Part shown: positions 11,541 through 48,982 of the stretch, piece after piece | Numbering within the stretch: the stretch's first letter is position 1 | Layout of the letters: every line of letters begins with the position of its first letter | NCBI GenBank assembly: GCA_002304445.1 | Contig: NEVA01000005.1 | Span: forward strand, 62,001-126,000 | Direction of reading: 5' to 3' | Source of the DNA: Opitutia bacterium Tous-C4FEB | GTDB lineage: Bacteria; Verrucomicrobiota; Verrucomicrobiia; Opitutales; Opitutaceae | Length of the DNA stretch: 64,000 nt | Position numbers and translations under genes: made by a program | The notes under the pieces: model-generated | The model's database searches: none | The model's input: the letters and a program-made list of their open reading frames with translations, nothing else | What the model was told of the DNA's origin: nothing

Positions 11541-11548
11541 TGCCCCAA

Positions 11549-11620
11549 GGAACCCACGGACTACACGGAAAGAAAACCATTCCGCTCTCCCTCTTCCTTT
11601 CCGTGTAGTCCGTGGGTTCC
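11549..11620. repeat. Perfect 24-bp inverted repeat with 24-base spacer
   Basis: The left arm (11549-11572, beginning GGAACCCACGGACTACACGG) is the exact reverse complement of the right arm (11597-11620, ending GTCCGTGGGTTCC). The right arm contains CCGTGTAGT / CCGTGGGTT / CCGTGG units, which recall the GTGTCC repeats elsewhere in the window. It lies between the DUF3108 gene (stop 11540) and the glycosyltransferase gene (start 11707). There is no T-tract after either arm, so it is unlikely to be a standard terminator. Confidence 0.75.
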
Positions 11621-11706
11621 GTGGGCGCTCCGCCGGTGCCTTCTCCGTCTCTTCCTTTCGTGCATCTCGTGTTTTTCGTTGTGACCACCTCCTCTCCGAT
11701 CGCCCC

Positions 11707-40597: not shown

Positions 40598-40632
40598 CTC
40601 TGTGTCCATCCGTGCCGACCTGTGGTTAAAAA
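40598..40632 (+). repeat. Decamer-periodic GTGTCC-type repeat overlapping the uvrA start
   Basis: Units CTGTGTCCAT / CCGTGCCGAC / CTGTGGTTAA share a ten-base period and sequence with the arrays at 6326-6355 and 46700-46740. The GTG used as uvrA start (40622) lies inside the third unit. Confidence 0.55.
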
Positions 40633-43600
40633 AGTCGCTAGTTCCATTCCTTCTTCCGCTCGCCCAACCGCCTCCGCACCGGAGTGCATTCGCCTTCGTG
40701 GCGTCCGCCAAAACAACCTCAAGGGCTTCGATCTCGATCTGCCCATCGGTCGCTACGTCGTCGTCACCGGACTCAGCGGCGCCGGCAAATCCTCCCTCGT
40801 CTTCGACACGCTCCACGCCGAGGGCCAACGCCGCTACGTCGAGACTTTCTCGGCCTACACCCGCCAGTTTCTCGACCTGCTCGATAAACCCAAAGTCGAC
40901 TCCATCGAAAACATCCGCTCGTCCATCGCCATCGAGCAGACGAATACCGTAAAGACCTCTCGTTCCACCGTCGGCACCATGACGGAGTTGACCGATTTCT
41001 TCAAAGTCTGGTTCGCCCAAGTCGCCACGTGCTACGATCCCGTCACCGGCGAACCCGTCGAAGATGATACGCCCCAAACGATTTGGGCCAAGGTCTTCGC
41101 CGCCCATGCCCAGCGCACGACGCTCATCACGTTCAAGGTCGAGAAACCCGCCAACCTCACCTGGACCGAGATTCTCACGAGCCTTAAGAATCAAGGTTAC
41201 GTCCGCGTCCTGATCGGGGGAGCCGCGCAAAAGATCGAAGACCTTTTGGCCGGCTCCGCTTTCCCCGCTTCGCCCGTCTCACCTGCTCTGTTCGTCGTGC
41301 AAGATCGCCTCGCGATTCAAACGGCGAACCAGTCCCGCTTCCTCGAAGCGGCCGAATCGGCGATGCACTTTGGCCACGGCCAAGTCTATCTTTTCACCGC
41401 CTCCGATCCTTCGACTTCACCGGCCGAACTTAAACTGATCCCGGCAGGGCACTTTTCCCGCGGTCTGCACTCGCCCACGACCGGCCGCACGTTCCGCGCC
41501 GCATCGCCGGCTCTGTTCTCCTTCAACTCCCCCCTGGGCGCTTGCCCCAAATGCCGCGGCTTCGGTCGCGTCATCGACATCGACTACCGCCTCGCTTTGC
41601 CGGATCAGTCGCTCTCGATCAACGGCGGCGCGCTCAAATGCTGGGAAGGCGAAGTCTACCGCGCTTCCCTCGACGACCTCCGCGTCTTCGCGAAAAAGAA
41701 AAAAATTCCCTGCGACGTGCCCTTCGCCTCGCTCACCGAGGAACAAAAATCTTTCATCATCGACGGCGAACCCGGCTACGGCGAAGACAACGACAAGACT
41801 TGGCCCAAGTATTGGTATGGCGTGAAGGGATTCTTCAAGTGGCTCGAAAAGACCACGTATAAGATGCACGTCCGCGTCTTTCTTTCCCGCTACCGCGCCT
41901 ACAATCCCTGCCCTGACTGCGGCGGCCAACGTCTCCAACCCGAGTCTCTTTGCTGGCAATGGCAGGGCCGCACGCTCCCGCAACTTTACCAACTCCCCGT
42001 CAGCACCCTGCTGGACTTGGTCTCACGAGCTCAGATTTCCACGCCCAAATCTGAAACCTCTTCCGGCCCGGACCACGCGCTTATTTCCATCCTCACCCGT
42101 CTTCGTTACCTCGAACAAGTCGGCCTCGGCTACCTCACGCTCGACCGTCAGTCGAAAACCCTTTCCGGCGGCGAAGTCCAACGCGTCAACCTCACCAGCT
42201 GTCTCGGCACTTCGCTCGTCGACACGCTCTTCGTCCTCGACGAACCCAGCGTCGGCCTGCACCCGCGCGACATCGACCGACTCATCGCGATCATCCGCAC
42301 CCTGACCGATTCCGGCAACACCGTCGTCGTCGTCGAGCACGACGAAGCGATGATCCGCGCCGCCGACCACGTCGTTGAGATAGGACCCGAGCCCGGTGCC
42401 CGCGGTGGTCACGTTGTCTTCCAAGGCGACATTCCCGCCCTGCTTGCGTCTCCTGTCAGCATCACGGGAAGCTACCTTTCCGGCCGACAATCCATCGCTG
42501 TCCCCGAGCGACGCCGTCCGGTGCCGGTTAACCACCCCTCCGTCCGTTTCACCAACGCCACGAAGCATAATCTCCGTCGCCTCTCGTTCCGCCTCCCGTT
42601 GCAACGTTTGGTCTGCCTGAGCGGCGTCTCCGGCTCCGGCAAATCCACTTTGCTTGATCACGTCATCTATCAGGGGCTACTCGCCCAGCGCCTCCAACTC
42701 ACCGACGACCCCGCCGCCATCGAAGCTATCGCGAGCGATCTCACGTTCTCCGAGATCGTCCTCGTCGACCAATCTCCACTCTCCCGCACTCCACGCTCCA
42801 ACCCCGCTCTTTACACCGAAGCATGGGAGCTCATCCGCGAACTCTACGCCGAAACCCCCGCGGCCTTGGCCGCCGGCTTCAACGCTTCGTCGTTTTCCTT
42901 CAATTCCGGCGAAGGTCGCTGCGATCACTGCCAAGGACTCGGCTACGAACGCATCGAAATGCAGTTCCTCTCCGACGTCTTTGTGCCATGCCCCGTGTGC
43001 GAGGGTCGTCGCTTTAAACCGGAAGTCCTCGCCGTCCAATGGCAGGAAAAGTCCGTCGCCGATCTCCTCGCGACCAGTATCACCGACGCCCTCCCGCTCT
43101 TCAATCCGACCGCCGCTCCTGTTTCTCGCCGCGACGCCGCCGCCCTCGCGACGATTCACCAGCGTCTCTCCACCCTCGAGTCGGTCGGTCTCGGCTACCT
43201 TACACTCGGCCAGCCGCTCAACACGCTCAGCGGCGGCGAATCCCAGCGCCTGAAACTCGTTCGCTACCTCGGAGCCTTCGCCGGCTCGGTGGGCCCTCAA
43301 GTTTCGGATCCCAACTCTCAGGTCGCGCCTTCAACCGGCGCTCTCCTGTTGCTCGACGAACCCACCACCGGCCTCCATCGCCACGACGTCAAACGTCTCC
43401 TGCTGGCCCTCCACGCCCTCGTCGACGCCGGCCACAGCGTCGTCGTGATTGAGCACAACTTGGATGTGCTAAAATCCGCCGATTGGATTCTCGAGGTCGG
43501 CCCCGAGGCCGGAGCGGCCGGCGGCCAGATCGTCGCAGAAGGCCCGCCCGAGCATCACCTCCGCACCGTCACCGCGACCACGCCGTTCCTTGCTGCCGCT

Positions 43601-46396
43601 CTCGCGCCCCACGAGCCCGTGGCCATCGCCGCCGAAACGCAGTCGGGCTACTCGACCACGCCGCTCTCCGCTCTCCGCACCCCGGAATTGGTCATCTCCG
43701 GCGCCCGCGAAAACAACCTCAAGAATCTCTCTCTCTGCATCCCGCATCGCCAACTCTCCGTCGTCACCGGCGTCTCGGGTTCCGGCAAAAGCACTCTCGC
43801 CTTCGACATCGTCTTCGCCGAGGGCCAGCGCCGCTTTATGGAGTCGATGTCGCCCTACGCGCGCCAGTTCGTCGAACAGCTCCCGCGCCCCGACGTCGAC
43901 CGTCTGACCGGCATCCCGCCCACCGTCGCCATCGAGCAGCGCATCACCCGTGGCTCCCGCAAATCCACCGTCGCCACCATCACTGAGGTCGCCCAATACC
44001 TCCGCCTCCTCTACGCCCGCCTCGGCGTCCAACATCATCCCGATTCGGACAAACCCGTTACTCCGCTCTCACCCGGCGCGTTGAAAAAACTTCTCGCGCG
44101 GGTCATCGACACTCCCGCCGCCCGCCGGGCCAAGCACCTCTATCTTTGTGCTCCGCTCATCCGCGGCCGCAAAGGCCACCATCAGCCGATCGCGACCTGG
44201 ATCGCCAATCAAGGCTACGACCTCATGCGCGCAGACGGGAAACTCACCCGCGTCGACGCCTTCCAAAAACTCGACCGCTATATCGAGCACGACATCGAGG
44301 TCGTCGTCGCCGATCTCAAGCATCCGAAAACGGAAACCCGAAAATCAAAAACCGAAACCGACCACCTCACCGAGGCCCTCCGCCTTGGCAAAGGCTCCTG
44401 TTTTCTCCTGACCCCCGACGGCACCATCCTCAGTTGGTTTTCAACCACACGCACCGACATCGACACCGGCGAGAGTTTTCCGGAGCTCGACCCAAAACAT
44501 TTTTCCTTCAATTCGCCTCGCGGTTGGTGCCCGTCCTGTCGAGGCCACGGTCGCATTTTCCCTTGGATGCTCGAGGCGAAAGACGACGCTGAAAAAGACG
44601 ACTCCGCCGCACGCCTCCGAGAGTTCGGAATCGACGACGCCGAAGAGGTTGCCGACGACGGGCAACCTTGCCCCGAGTGCCACGGTGCCCGCCTCAACCG
44701 CACCGCCCGCGCGGTAAAACTCCACTTCCAGAGCAAACAACTCCCGCTCTCTTTACCCGCCCTCCTCCGCGCCACTCCCGCGGAACTCATCACGCACCTC
44801 CGCGCCCTCGCGCTCGACGACCGAGGCAAGCTCATCACTCAAGACATCGTCCCGCAGATCGCCGAGCGCCTCAAATTTCTCGACCACGTCGGCCTCGGCT
44901 ACCTCTCCCTCGACCGACCGACCGACACCCTTTCCGGCGGCGAAGCCCAACGCATCCGCTTGGCCGCCCAACTCGGCACCAATCTGGCCGGCGTCCTTTA
45001 CGTTCTCGACGAGCCCTCCATCGGCCTGCACGCCCGCGACAACGACCGACTCATCGAAACCCTCCTCGCGCTCCGCGACAAAGGCAACACCCTGCTCGTC
45101 GTCGAGCACGACGACGAATTGATGGCGCGCGCCGACCGGATCATCGATCTCGGCCCCGGCGCCGGCGTTCATGGCGGTGCCCTGCTCGCCGAAGGCACGC
45201 CCGCGGAAATTCGCGCCAGTAAGCACTCCCTCACCGGCGTTTTTCTCGCCAAAGGCATCACTCATCCCCTCCGCGGCGATTACCGCCTTCTGCCCGCCGC
45301 CCGCGCAAAATCCGCGTGGCTTGAGCTCACCCAAGTCCGGTTCCGCAATCTGAAGAACGTCAGCCTTCGCCTCCCACTCGGCCGCCTCATCATGGTGGCC
45401 GGACCCAGTGGAGCGGGCAAATCCACTCTGTTCCGAGATGTGCTCCATCCCGCCGTCAGCCACGCGATCAAGACCAAAGCCGCCAAACTTACCGGCCGCG
45501 AATTCGCGCATGCCACGGGCTTCGCCAATGAAGGCGCAACCGCTCCGTTCGCCGCCCTCACCGGCGCGGATATTTTTCGCACGGTGGTCGAGGTGGACCA
45601 AAGCCCCATCGGCAAGACTCCGCGCTCAACGCCCGCGACCTATCTGGGTATCTTCGATCTCATCCGCCAATTTTTCGCGTCGCTCCCCGAGGCGAAAATC
45701 CGCGGCTATTCCGCCGCCCGGTTTTCCTTCAACACCAACGGTGGCCGCTGTCCCACCTGCGAGGGCGCCGGCCGCATCAAATTCGAGATGGCGTTCATGC
45801 CGACGACCTATCTCCCATGCGACGATTGTCGCGGCCTCCGTTACGGTCCCGACCTGGCGGACATTCTTTGGAAAGGAAAGTCTATCGGCCAAGTCCTTCA
45901 GCTCACGTTCGAGGAAGCCGCTGCATTCTTCGACTTTCACTCCCAGCTCTCACAAGTGTGCCAGCTCATGGTCGATTGCGGGTTGGGCTACCTCACGCTC
46001 GGCCAATCGTCGCCGACACTTTCCGGCGGTGAAGCCCAACGGCTCAAGCTCGTCACCGAACTTTCCACCGGCCTTGCCAGCTACCGCGAACGCTCCCGCG
46101 GCACGCCACCGCGAAATCTCTACCTCCTCGAAGAACCGACCATCGGCCTGCATCTGAGCGATTGCGAAAAACTCATCCGTGTCCTACATTCGCTCGTCGA
46201 CCAAGGGCATACGGTGGTCGTGATCGAGCATCACCTAGATTTGCTCGCTGAGGCCGACTACATCCTCGAACTCGGGCCCGTCGGGGGTCCCGACGGCGGC
46301 GAACTGCTTTACCAAGGTGACCTCGCCGGCCTGCTCAAAACCAAAGGCAGCCCAACCGCCCCCTATCTCAACGCCCGACTCGCCCCCTCCGCTTGA
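40622..46396 (+). CDS. uvrA: Double-length excinuclease ABC subunit A (tandem UvrA)
   Basis: A 1924-residue protein equal to two fused UvrA proteins with four ABC ATPase modules. Walker A sites occur near residues 50 (GLSGAGKSS), 668 (GVSGSGKST), 1049 (GVSGSGKST) and 1594 (GPSGAGKST). Signature motifs occur near 515 (LSGGEVQR), 870 (LSGGESQR), 1437 (LSGGEAQR) and 1800 (LSGGEAQR). Paired zinc-finger cysteines (CPKC/CPDC, CDHC/CPVC, CPSC/CPEC, CPTC/CDDC) recur in each half. UvrA recognises bulky DNA damage and loads UvrB. Chlamydial UvrA is known to have this double form. The start is the GTG at 40622, since no ATG lies before the first conserved block ([19 protein letters not shown]). Confidence 0.95.
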
Positions 46397-46498
46397 ACCT
46401 TGAATCCGCCGCAGCCCAACCCTCGTAGCTTTTTGCCCGCGAATGGACACGAACGGACACGAATTCACCCGGATAAAGCCGAGGAAACGGCCTCCGGG

Positions 46499-46572
46499 GT
46501 AGGAGCCCGCTCGCGGGCGATGTGCCGAGGGCGAACGTCGCAGCCTCAAATCGCCCGCAAGCGGGCTCCTAC
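46499..46572. repeat. REP-like pair, family 1 (GTAGGAGCCCGC type)
   Basis: 46499-46521 begins GTAGGAGCCCGCTCGCGGGC. 46550-46572 is its inverted copy with one mismatch in 23. Each copy can form a CCCGC/GCGGG hairpin, and both carry the GTAG head typical of RAYT-associated REPs. The pair is arranged head-outward with a 28-base spacer. Confidence 0.8.
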
Positions 46573-46584
46573 GCGCGCATTTTT

Positions 46585-46665
46585 GTAGGGCCCGACCTCG
46601 TGTCGGGCCGTTCAGGGTGGCGGGCGCCGCAGAGGGAAACGGCCTCACGCAAGGTGAGGCCCTAC
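46585..46665. repeat. REP-like pair, family 2 (GTAGGGCC type) with covarying stems
   Basis: 46585-46609 contains GGCCCGAC and GTCGGGCC arms. The inverted copy at 46641-46665, read on the minus strand, contains GGCCTCAC and GTGAGGCC arms. Where the two differ inside the stem, both sides change together, so the hairpin is kept. Both have the GTAG head. Confidence 0.8.
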
Positions 46666-46699
46666 AATTAACCAATCGCAAACGCCCATCGGTTTGGGA

Positions 46700-46740
46700 T
46701 TCGTGTCCATTCGTGTCCGTTCGTGTCCATCCGTGGTTCA
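46700..46740 (+). repeat. Decamer array TCGTGTCCAT / TCGTGTCCGT / TCGTGTCCAT / CCGTGGTTCA
   Basis: Four consecutive ten-base units, three nearly identical. The same pattern is found at 6326 and 40598, and an inverted partial copy lies at 46441-46463. Confidence 0.75.
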
Positions 46741-46859
46741 ACTGCCGTTTTTACACCCATGACGTTTGATTTTTAGACGGCAGGTTCCGAGGAGCCGATG
46801 AACTCAATCAAGTCAAATCCCCTTCGGGGTGGAACGGGGTTTCATCGCCTTTTATCTGA

Positions 46860-48215
<1,356 letters not shown>

Positions 48216-48258
48216 GCCTCGGGCACGCGGCCGCTCCCGGCCGCATCTTCTGTTACGA

Positions 48259-48286
48259 GACCGGGCCCGTGCCCGGTCTTTTTTTT
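48259..48286 (+). terminator. Rho-independent terminator of eno
   Basis: GACCGGGC (48259-48266) pairs with GCCCGGTC (48271-48278) around a four-base loop, followed by eight Ts. Confidence 0.92.
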
Positions 48287-48328
48287 CCTCGGAACCGCAC
48301 CCCCCCATTCGCAGGCTCTTACCTCAAC

Positions 48329-48982
48329 ATGAATGCGCCCACCTTTTCCGTCGCCTGGCTCACCGTCGCCCTCACCGCCTCGCTGACCGCCGCCGAGCCC
48401 GCGACCCCGCCCACGACCAAGGCTCCGGAGCAGAGCTCATCGGATTCGGCTGCGCCTGCCCCATCGGCAAACGTGACCGAAGCCATGATCCGCGCGCGCC
48501 AAGCCGAGCGAATCAAGGCCAAGACCGCGACGAAACCGGCCGCAGCGCCCGCGAGCGGCAAATCCGAGACCGGCGCCCCCGCCCACCTGCCCGCGCCCAC
48601 CGGCGCCGAGCTCGCCAAATCAAAAGCCGAAACGCCGGAGATTTTGCCCAAAGTCGAAGTTCGCCGCTCCCGCGCGACCGAAATCGAGCTCGAAGTATTC
48701 AAGCAGGAAAAGGAGATCGAGCGAGAGAGAGCGAAGATCAAGTCCACTGACACCGACCGGGCCCTGAACCAGACTTCCAGCAAGAGCCTCTCAATTTTTG
48801 GCGGCCAAACGACTACTCAACGCGAATCCGTCGCGAAGGAGCGCGTCAGCCTCATGGAGTCGGAGCGCGACCTGATGGAGGCCATCGCCTACGCCAAAAC
48901 TAAGGAAGAAAAAGAGGCGCTCCGCAAAGAGCTCAACGAGATCAAGGCATTGCGCCGCGATCTCGAAAGCGCCCTGCGTTGA
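48329..48982 (+). CDS. Secreted coiled-coil protein of unknown function
   Basis: A 217-residue protein with a signal peptide (MNAPTFSVAWLTVALTASLTAAEP). An Ala/Pro/Ser/Lys-rich, probably disordered region follows to about residue 115. The C-terminal part is strongly charged and helical (EIELEVFKQEKEIERERAKI, ERDLMEAIAYAKTKEEKEAL) with coiled-coil spacing. The ATG at 48329 is chosen for the signal peptide; the upstream frame runs into the eno terminator. No recognised family. Confidence 0.65.
   Translation: MNAPTFSVAWLTVALTASLTAAEPATPPTTKAPEQSSSDSAAPAPSANVTEAMIRARQAERIKAKTATKPAAAPASGKSETGAPAHLPAPTGAELAKSKAETPEILPKVEVRRSRATEIELEVFKQEKEIERERAKIKSTDTDRALNQTSSKSLSIFGGQTTTQRESVAKERVSLMESERDLMEAIAYAKTKEEKEALRKELNEIKALRRDLESALR

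Follow-up and report, generated by a model that had tools for sequence, protein, structure and literature searches.

The uvrA–eno gap in an environmental genome of the Opitutaceae, probably from fresh water (G000; 3.76 Mb in 39 contigs, assembly 96% complete), contains inverted repeats, and the locus raises the question of whether these form one mobile unit or several elements placed one inside the other. The window analyzed here is the whole stretch of 64,000 nucleotides G000:C35:62001-126000, and positions given without a contig name refer to it. Comparisons were made within a set of 38 genomes that includes G000.

Anatomy of the island and its REP families

The initial annotation described an island composed of an inverted repeat and two inverted pairs of GTAG-headed palindromes at this place, and this was confirmed in the sequence. 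The island (46437–46741) consists of an imperfect inverted repeat, referred to here as the bracket, around two HH dimers of GTAG-type REPs belonging to families U1 and U2 (Table 1). The HH naming follows the convention of Di Nocera et al. (2013; PMC3733652), with the GTAG ends lying outside. A perfect inverted repeat of 21 bases had been reported; the perfect core is present, though it measures 22 nt (46443–46464 pairing with 46709–46730) and lies within 38-nt arms that are 84% complementary. The stems of the two U2 copies are as originally given. The U1 pattern (GTAGGAGCNNGCTNGCNNGCGA, up to 2 mismatches) was found at 80 places in G000 and the reversed pattern at one, and the island folded as single-stranded DNA gave z = -12.1, with none of 100 shuffles being equally stable; because of these two results, the island cannot be regarded as a product of chance.

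Table 1. Positions of the island components, the neighboring genes and a second bracket-style repeat within the window.
Feature	Position	Strand	Remarks
uvrA	40622..46396	+	1924-aa UvrA, intact, upstream of island
Left bracket arm	46437..46474	.	inverted repeat, ~10-bp periodic: CGAATGGACACGAACGGACACGAAT
Spacer module S3	46483..46498	-	found again next to U1 in other G000 islands
REP U1, HH dimer half 1	46499..46521	+	GTAGGAGC..GC
Spacer module S2	46530..46551	-	separates the two U1 copies; found again in other islands
REP U1, HH dimer half 2	46550..46572	-	
REP U2	~46583..46612	+	stem GGCCCGAC/GTCGGGCC
Spacer module S4	46612..46633	-	separates the two U2 copies; found again in other islands
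REP U2	~46638..46667	-	stem GGCCTCAC/GTGAGGCC
Right bracket arm	46699..46736	.	bracket sequence in common extends to ~46748
eno (enolase)	46938..48215	+	intact, downstream of island
Second bracket-style inverted repeat	11544..11625	.	gene-less, CACGGA-unit arms, flanked by co-directional frames

When the whole window was scanned for inverted pairs (seed 11, length of at least 20, distance of at most 700), five pairs were obtained, two of which are in the island (the bracket and U1), with another being the second bracket-style pair listed in Table 1. The arms of the latter carry CCCACGGACTACACGGAAAG around an 18-nt gap, directly past a stop codon, with more 10-bp-like repeats downstream, ahead of the next start. 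Searching 45500–48500 against Rfam returned no family at the gathering score and four weak matches that were judged to be chance. The open frame that crosses the bracket has no Pfam match, leaving the bracket as inverted ends without a gene inside. The neighboring UvrA has three matched UvrA stretches and could represent a double UvrA resembling the 1809-position model NF001885, for which it scores below the cut-off; a degenerate bracket-style stretch (TCTGTGTCCATCCGTG...CTGTGGTTAAAAAA) is also found at the start of the uvrA frame (40599–40634).

U1 is a textbook GTAG REP with a cognate RAYT in the genome. Compensatory changes in the REP stems, as initially proposed, were found throughout this family, with both free stem pairs being Watson-Crick in 42 of 47 mismatch-free copies, a number reached in none of 5000 shuffles of the right halves (mean 24.1, maximum 34). 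With 1 mismatch allowed, U1 was found in 13 of the 38 genomes, G000 included, with at least 26 matches each in G000, G001, G007, G010 and G022. Five genes of the RAYT-like family PF01797 are present in G000. One of these (G000:C2:102886-103401, L035, 172 aa) passes NF047646, the model of REP-associated tyrosine transposases, at 90 bits (cut-off 80), while scoring slightly below the Pfam cut-off (22.5 vs. 23 bits), and has U1 copies on both flanks, with both orientations present. On this linkage of gene and repeat, U1 would likely be served in trans by the C2 RAYT, a step that forms part of the overall explanation given below. Single-strand recognition and cutting by a RAYT have been reported for the Escherichia coli system (PMC3733652). 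In G000 it is the U1/RAYT linkage that is shown, and the C2 RAYT may act on U1 in the same way.

The four other RAYT-like genes of G000 include two that pass NF047646, one that falls narrowly short and one well below. Two of the four each have their own kind of palindrome on the flanks (GTAGCCGGGGTCGC.. and GTGGAGCCCGATGTC..), and the remaining two had no flanking palindromes in the flank search, which targeted GTRG hairpins. Across G000 and its relatives, matching GTRG hairpins were found on both sides in 30 of 52 RAYT rows (30 of 51 genes, one gene being listed both as L158 and as L378), and in 0 of 290 control windows taken from eno loci. The relatives are rich in RAYTs (L138, L145, L156 and other loci), in many cases with a GTRG palindrome particular to the gene, and these represent a good set for studying RAYT/REP co-evolution.

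The second family, U2, has the GTAG head, the palindrome and several copies, and the two units can thus be assigned, as had been proposed, to two families of GTAG REPs. A strict U2 pattern matched at 4 places in G000 and at none in the control, and a loose pattern was noisy, with 35 places vs. 27 in the control, approximately 11 of which (0–2 mismatches) are credible by eye. Further copies of both units therefore exist, a genome-wide count having been set beforehand as a check. Neither of the outcomes named in advance as refuting the proposal, a lack of additional copies or of any RAYT/Y1 transposase in the genome, was obtained. The expectation of a RAYT flanked by the same palindromes held for U1 and failed for U2, as none of the five RAYT-like genes in the 96% complete assembly of G000 is flanked by it. 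The nearest design noticed was a REP (GTAGGGGCGCACCTTGCGTGCGCCC) beside a RAYT of G014 (L145). U2 is probably the legacy of a RAYT that is absent from, or was lost in, G000.

Bracket-style repeats and GxxExxY genes

The bracket pattern ACCNCGNATGGACNCGNAT (1 mismatch) was found in 27 of the 38 genomes, G000 included, with 4 control matches overall. Among the places listed, convergent pairs 60–220 bp apart are frequent, and the flanks of 20 places that were fetched are unrelated to one another. An exact 28-mer (CCRCGAATGGACRCGAATGGACRCGAAT) was located on at least 112 stretches of genome contigs, many of them from MAGs, whose record titles name Verrucomicrobiota, Planctomycetota, Kiritimatiellae, Victivallales, Hydrogenedentota, Acidobacteria, Anaerolineales, Gammaproteobacteria, Nitrosomonas and Desulforhopalus. 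For 58 of 120 exact 28-mer sites a convergent partner lay no more than 500 bp away. Among random positions of these loci the figure was 158 of 2120, a control that is inflated because the loci themselves hold the element.

Four loci (L261, L320, L357, and L370) have an open frame with a G-x-x-E-x-x-Y motif enclosed by bracket arms, with an in-frame ATG inside the left arm in L320 and L370. The proteins of L320 and L261 match TIGR04256, and that of L320 also matches PF13366 (PDDEXK_3). At a further locus, L311, only the start and the end of a GxxExxY gene are kept between the arms, which reads by eye as a putative internal deletion of such an element. Searching with TIGR04256 gave 97 matches in 24 of the 38 genomes, one of them in G000, and none above the cut-off in 14 control genomes; 90 of these loci were fetched and 79 were scored, the remaining 11 of the 90 being impossible to score. 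An inverted repeat scoring at least 14 frames the gene in 52 of the 79 scored loci, which are from Opitutaceae and relatives. The same threshold was reached by 8 of 395 mismatched pairings of left and right flanks (highest score 22) and by 0 of 145 control frames (highest 12), and 632 single-base shuffles of the GxxExxY loci never scored above 13. The other 27 of the 79 genes score below 14, so the frame is either not universal or has decayed. As an observation on their distribution, L412 and L424 are two closely similar GxxExxY elements approximately 2.3 kb apart on one contig (G031:C92), and a single 6-kb contig of Desulforhopalus vacuolatus (L350), from outside the PVC group, holds three GxxExxY-like fragments together with the bracket 28-mer.

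The arms of these elements have a characteristic composition. They typically comprise three direct copies of a 7-mer, often of the form C-R-C-N-R-A-N, which are mirrored in the other arm. In 32 of the 52 framed elements one 7-mer (at most 1 mismatch) is present at least 6 times across both arms, vs. 1 of 52 when shuffled arms were paired with their own mirror, and the spacing of the copies is 8–10 bp in 161 of 174 cases. The 7-mer differs between elements (CACGGAT, CGCGAAT, CACAGAG, CGCTAAT, CACAAAA and others) and yet is mirrored within each, which means that both arms change together. The single GxxExxY gene of G000 (L414) has CGCGAAT arms and a score of 14, exactly at the threshold. Arms closely like those of the bracket frame GxxExxY genes in L261/L452, L320 and L370, with no element matching the bracket over its full length. 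Arm similarity follows protein identity weakly (rho 0.18), and at 70% identity or above one third of 12 pairs share arms.

Conservation across the 79 protein rows is high for columns D (93%), E (77%), K (92%), Q (84%) and Y (87%); the 100% found at G, E and Y of the motif that gives the family its name is due to the selection of rows by that motif. The Q and Y columns are what we take to be the QxxxY motif of RecB/Cas4-like PD-(D/E)XK members, and the pattern as a whole is in line with a predicted active PD-(D/E)XK nuclease of that type. No sequence match to GxxExxY protein P0001 was found among solved structures at E ≤ 1, and an AlphaFold2 model from a 3-row alignment was too poor to use (mean pLDDT 45). 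In the literature searched, which left most subscription journals and preprints outside, neither a paper on GxxExxY genes as mobile elements nor a description of the role of the family was found. The GxxExxY-related passage of PMC8934634 concerns a gene beside a reverse transcriptase, and no mobile element is mentioned in it.

From these data a complete element consists of a left arm, the GxxExxY gene and a right arm that starts at or near the stop codon, over mostly ~425–480 bp. The GxxExxY protein may recognize the repeats of its own arms and assist in the insertion or replacement of elements at fixed junctions between genes, with internally deleted copies retaining the arms. In such a scheme the bracket would be an old gene-less (MITE-like) member of this small inverted-repeat class. 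Both a mobility driven by GxxExxY and the descent of the bracket from such an element are steps that we infer.

An alternative is that the bracket belongs to an independent class of horizontally spread, 10-bp-periodic repeats with a mover other than GxxExxY, the GxxExxY genes being frequent passengers. This would suit the cross-phylum loci, where 10 GxxExxY stretches were found in 112 and only 6 of the 112 have one within 300 bp of the 28-mer, so that most bracket copies are without a GxxExxY gene nearby and could have another origin; it would also suit the other content that is found between arms at some loci. The geometry of the 45 elements scoring at least 17 speaks against it. In 34 of these the total length is 423–480 bp, in 38 the end of the left arm is 69–113 bases ahead of the motif, and in 35 the start of the right arm falls between 28 bases before and 18 bases after the stop codon. 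The positions of the two arms are too regular for a chance passenger, and we consider this alternative the less probable one, though a serious rival.

Occupied and empty gene junctions

A joined-flank query in the 38 genomes, followed by reading of the sequences, identified three sites (A, B, and D) at which the orthologous junction is empty in part of the relatives and carries differing inserts in others. Site A lies between co-directional frames, an aldehyde dehydrogenase-like gene and its neighbor (named by eye), and was read in 13 genomes. It holds a complete 436-bp element in G007 and inserts of 100 bp in G000, 109 bp in G010, 119 bp in G006, 104 bp in G004 and 257 bp in G011. It is empty in the other seven, with a spacer of 11 bp in G001, G002, G003, G005, G009 and G012 and of 6 bp in G019; G018, in which the flanks are 1585 bp apart, is outside the 13 genomes counted. 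The inserts of G000 and G010 are inverted repeats of very different sequences (0 of 200 shuffles as good for each), and those of G006 (4 of 200), G004 (122 of 200) and G011 (96 of 200) fail this simple inverted-repeat test. Site D, read in 7 genomes, has a shared short element in G000, G007 and G010, a different inverted repeat in G006 and 8–13 bp in G008, G009 and G012.

Site B is located between an ABC ATPase and a permease gene (named by eye), again co-directional, and was compared in 17 genomes. GxxExxY elements occupy it in G000, G007, G010, G006, G004, G015 and G001, the spacing in G001 being invalid as the contig ends and the left flank is missing. In G011 it holds a 217-bp inverted repeat without a gene, which passes the inverted-repeat shuffle test. 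Nothing is present in G002, G003, G005, G008, G009 and G012 (6 of 17), and spacers of 20–39 bp are found in G016, G018 and G019, giving 9 of 17 empty if these are counted, with G016 and G019 resting on weak flank matches. The elements are of three arm kinds: CGCGAAT (G000 and G015), CACGGAA (G010, G001, and G004) and CACGAAA (G007 and G006). G000, G007 and G010 are mutually closest (eno 95–96%), but G000 has the arm kind of G015 (eno 78%) and G007 that of G006 (eno 86%). The flanks of the site are 92–97% identical among G000, G007 and G010, and their GxxExxY proteins differ at many positions. The tree of the 79 proteins is based on few columns in relation to its number of rows, one of which (L485) is very long. 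In this tree 2 changes are required to account for the seven site-B proteins, both forced by well-supported branches; the junction was therefore colonized on two or more occasions, or one occupant took the place of another. Such swapping of alleles could be explained by replacement through homologous recombination in the flanks. Inspection of sites A, B and D by eye revealed no target-site duplication, the flanks being too diverged to exclude a short one.

These junctions also bear on the view that the repeats serve an RNA function, with transcribed hairpins selected as terminators, RNase III sites or mRNA stabilizers between co-directional genes. Selected RNA pairing would explain why both arms change together, and the strong fold of the island and the placement of sites A and B and of the 11544 element between co-directional frames agree with it. 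However, 7 of the 13 genomes at site A manage with a spacer of 6–11 bp, and at site B 6 of the 17 have nothing and three more only the short spacers. Pairing alone also leaves the direct 7-mer repeats of each arm and the nuclease-like gene inside unexplained, and a role in RNA as the main explanation is improbable.

A GxxExxY element class is supported by the regular framing of the gene, by arms that change together and by the junctions that are occupied in some genomes and empty in others. Caution is needed because no target duplication was recognized, arm similarity follows protein identity so weakly, the hairpin of the G010 bracket (see below) is poor and there are many gene-less copies. 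With these points weighed, we tentatively propose, at a little under even confidence, that GxxExxY genes and their mirrored 7-mer arms constitute an undescribed mobile-element class of ~450 bp. This class would be widespread in the PVC group and also occur beyond it, and would insert at fixed intergenic places by means of a PD-(D/E)XK nuclease instead of a transposase. Both of its arms would be rewritten or swapped together, and gene-less copies would be left behind, in which REP dimers could land as in the window.

Nesting at the uvrA–eno gap and relation to known systems

The same intergenic region was compared in relatives, as had been suggested at the outset. Among the genomes read, only G007 and G010 have uvrA adjoining eno, and the bracket is present in both, without any REP inside in G010 and with a U2 dimer and a truncated U1 in G007, where G000 has U1 and U2 dimers. 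As simple hairpins, neither the G010 bracket (equaled by 25 of 200 shuffles) nor the best repeat of the G007 uvrA–eno stretch (16 of 200) exceeded chance. The sequence ahead of eno is unlike that of uvrA in six further members of the genus and one member of the family that were read, so these seven genomes offer no empty uvrA–eno gap for comparison. The initial annotation had the insertion leaving both genes intact; the UvrA and enolase frames are indeed whole, and as no bracket-free uvrA–eno gap was found among the genomes read, the insertion itself is one that we infer rather than demonstrate.

Elsewhere in G000 the modules recur in differing order (C37:108.7k, C37:111.0k, and C15:52.2k), in one case without the bracket (C1:431.9k), and REP-free copies of the bracket occur at C12:9895 and C16:13410. 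From the REP-free brackets and the differing order of the modules it follows that bracket and REPs are separate systems, one inside the other. Two inverted-repeat elements of G017 (L247 and L250) enclose another inverted repeat, different from their own but similar in style, and nesting is thus not limited to REPs. We regard it as likely, taking the explanation as a whole, that two unrelated element systems lie nested in the island. The inner system would be two REPINs (HH dimers) from two GTAG-type REP families, U1 being served by its RAYT, and these dimers would have settled later within an older gene-less inverted repeat, itself a derivative of a GxxExxY element.

The initial annotation's view of one composite, with the bracket and both REP dimers copied whole by a RAYT, would be in keeping with the joint occurrence of bracket, spacers and REPs at G000:C37:111037-111323 and C15:52243-52476 and of bracket, U1 and U2 in one MAG (L312) and bracket and U2 in another (L264), but it is quite improbable given the REP-free bracket of G010 at the same site, the other content of G007, the REP-free copies in G000, the varying module order, bracket matches in genomes without a U1 match (27 of 38 genomes vs. 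13 of 38, with G000 counted in both) and the association of the bracket's inverted-repeat style with GxxExxY genes. A single RAYT-moved unit was rejected as the main reading because of the brackets without REPs.

With the island read as REP dimers nested in a gene-less inverted repeat, its two parts can be compared separately to known systems. The REP part of the island is ordinary; its REPs, RAYT and HH dimers are of known kinds, and Nunvar et al. (2010; PMC2817692) had earlier noted complementary changes in REP stems. O. terrae, which we take to be of the same family as the source genome, has been reported to be highly enriched in GTAG repeats (PMC2817692; PMC3733652). With the known GTAG REP/REPIN/RAYT–REPtron systems (PMC2817692; PMC3733652) the island shares the GTAG head, the GC-rich palindrome whose stem changes are complementary, HH dimers at distances of mostly 20–100 bp, copy numbers in the tens and a RAYT that has its cognate REP on its flanks. 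It differs in that two families adjoin within an inverted-repeat element, and in that one of them, U2, is without a visible RAYT in G000. The closest parallel to REP dimers within a longer palindrome is given by the GTAG-15 dimers of Anabaena variabilis, which are inserted in long palindromes (PMC3733652). According to that account no REP-free target palindromes were found in A. variabilis, whereas here they are common in the family, with one at the same site in G010.

The bracket links a repeat style of many environmental bacteria (CGAATGGACACGAAT and variants) to a conserved family of small nuclease-like genes. MITEs are short, gene-less, dispersed inverted-repeat elements. The bracket class resembles these and the TIRtrons described in PMC3733652 in having short, gene-less and dispersed inverted repeats, together with a fuller form that has a gene between the repeats. 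It differs from both in that the gene is GxxExxY, of the PD-(D/E)XK superfamily, and not a DDE or Y1 transposase, in that the arms are built of iterated, element-specific 7-mers, and in that no target duplication was recognized. If the proposed class is real, it would add a minimal kind of mobile element whose sole gene is a nuclease, and short hypothetical frames, among them the MNHGWTRTDTNGHE frame of this locus, would be accounted for as translated repeat arms; the occupied and empty orthologous junctions allow direct tests of mobility. Homing endonuclease genes and the intervening sequences of 23S rRNA genes are small genes at a precise site with a patchy occurrence in relatives, the latter with hairpin-forming ends. 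We know of no homing activity for GxxExxY elements. They are like these two groups in being small, precisely sited and present or absent among relatives, and unlike them in that their sites lie between genes and not inside conserved genes or rRNA.
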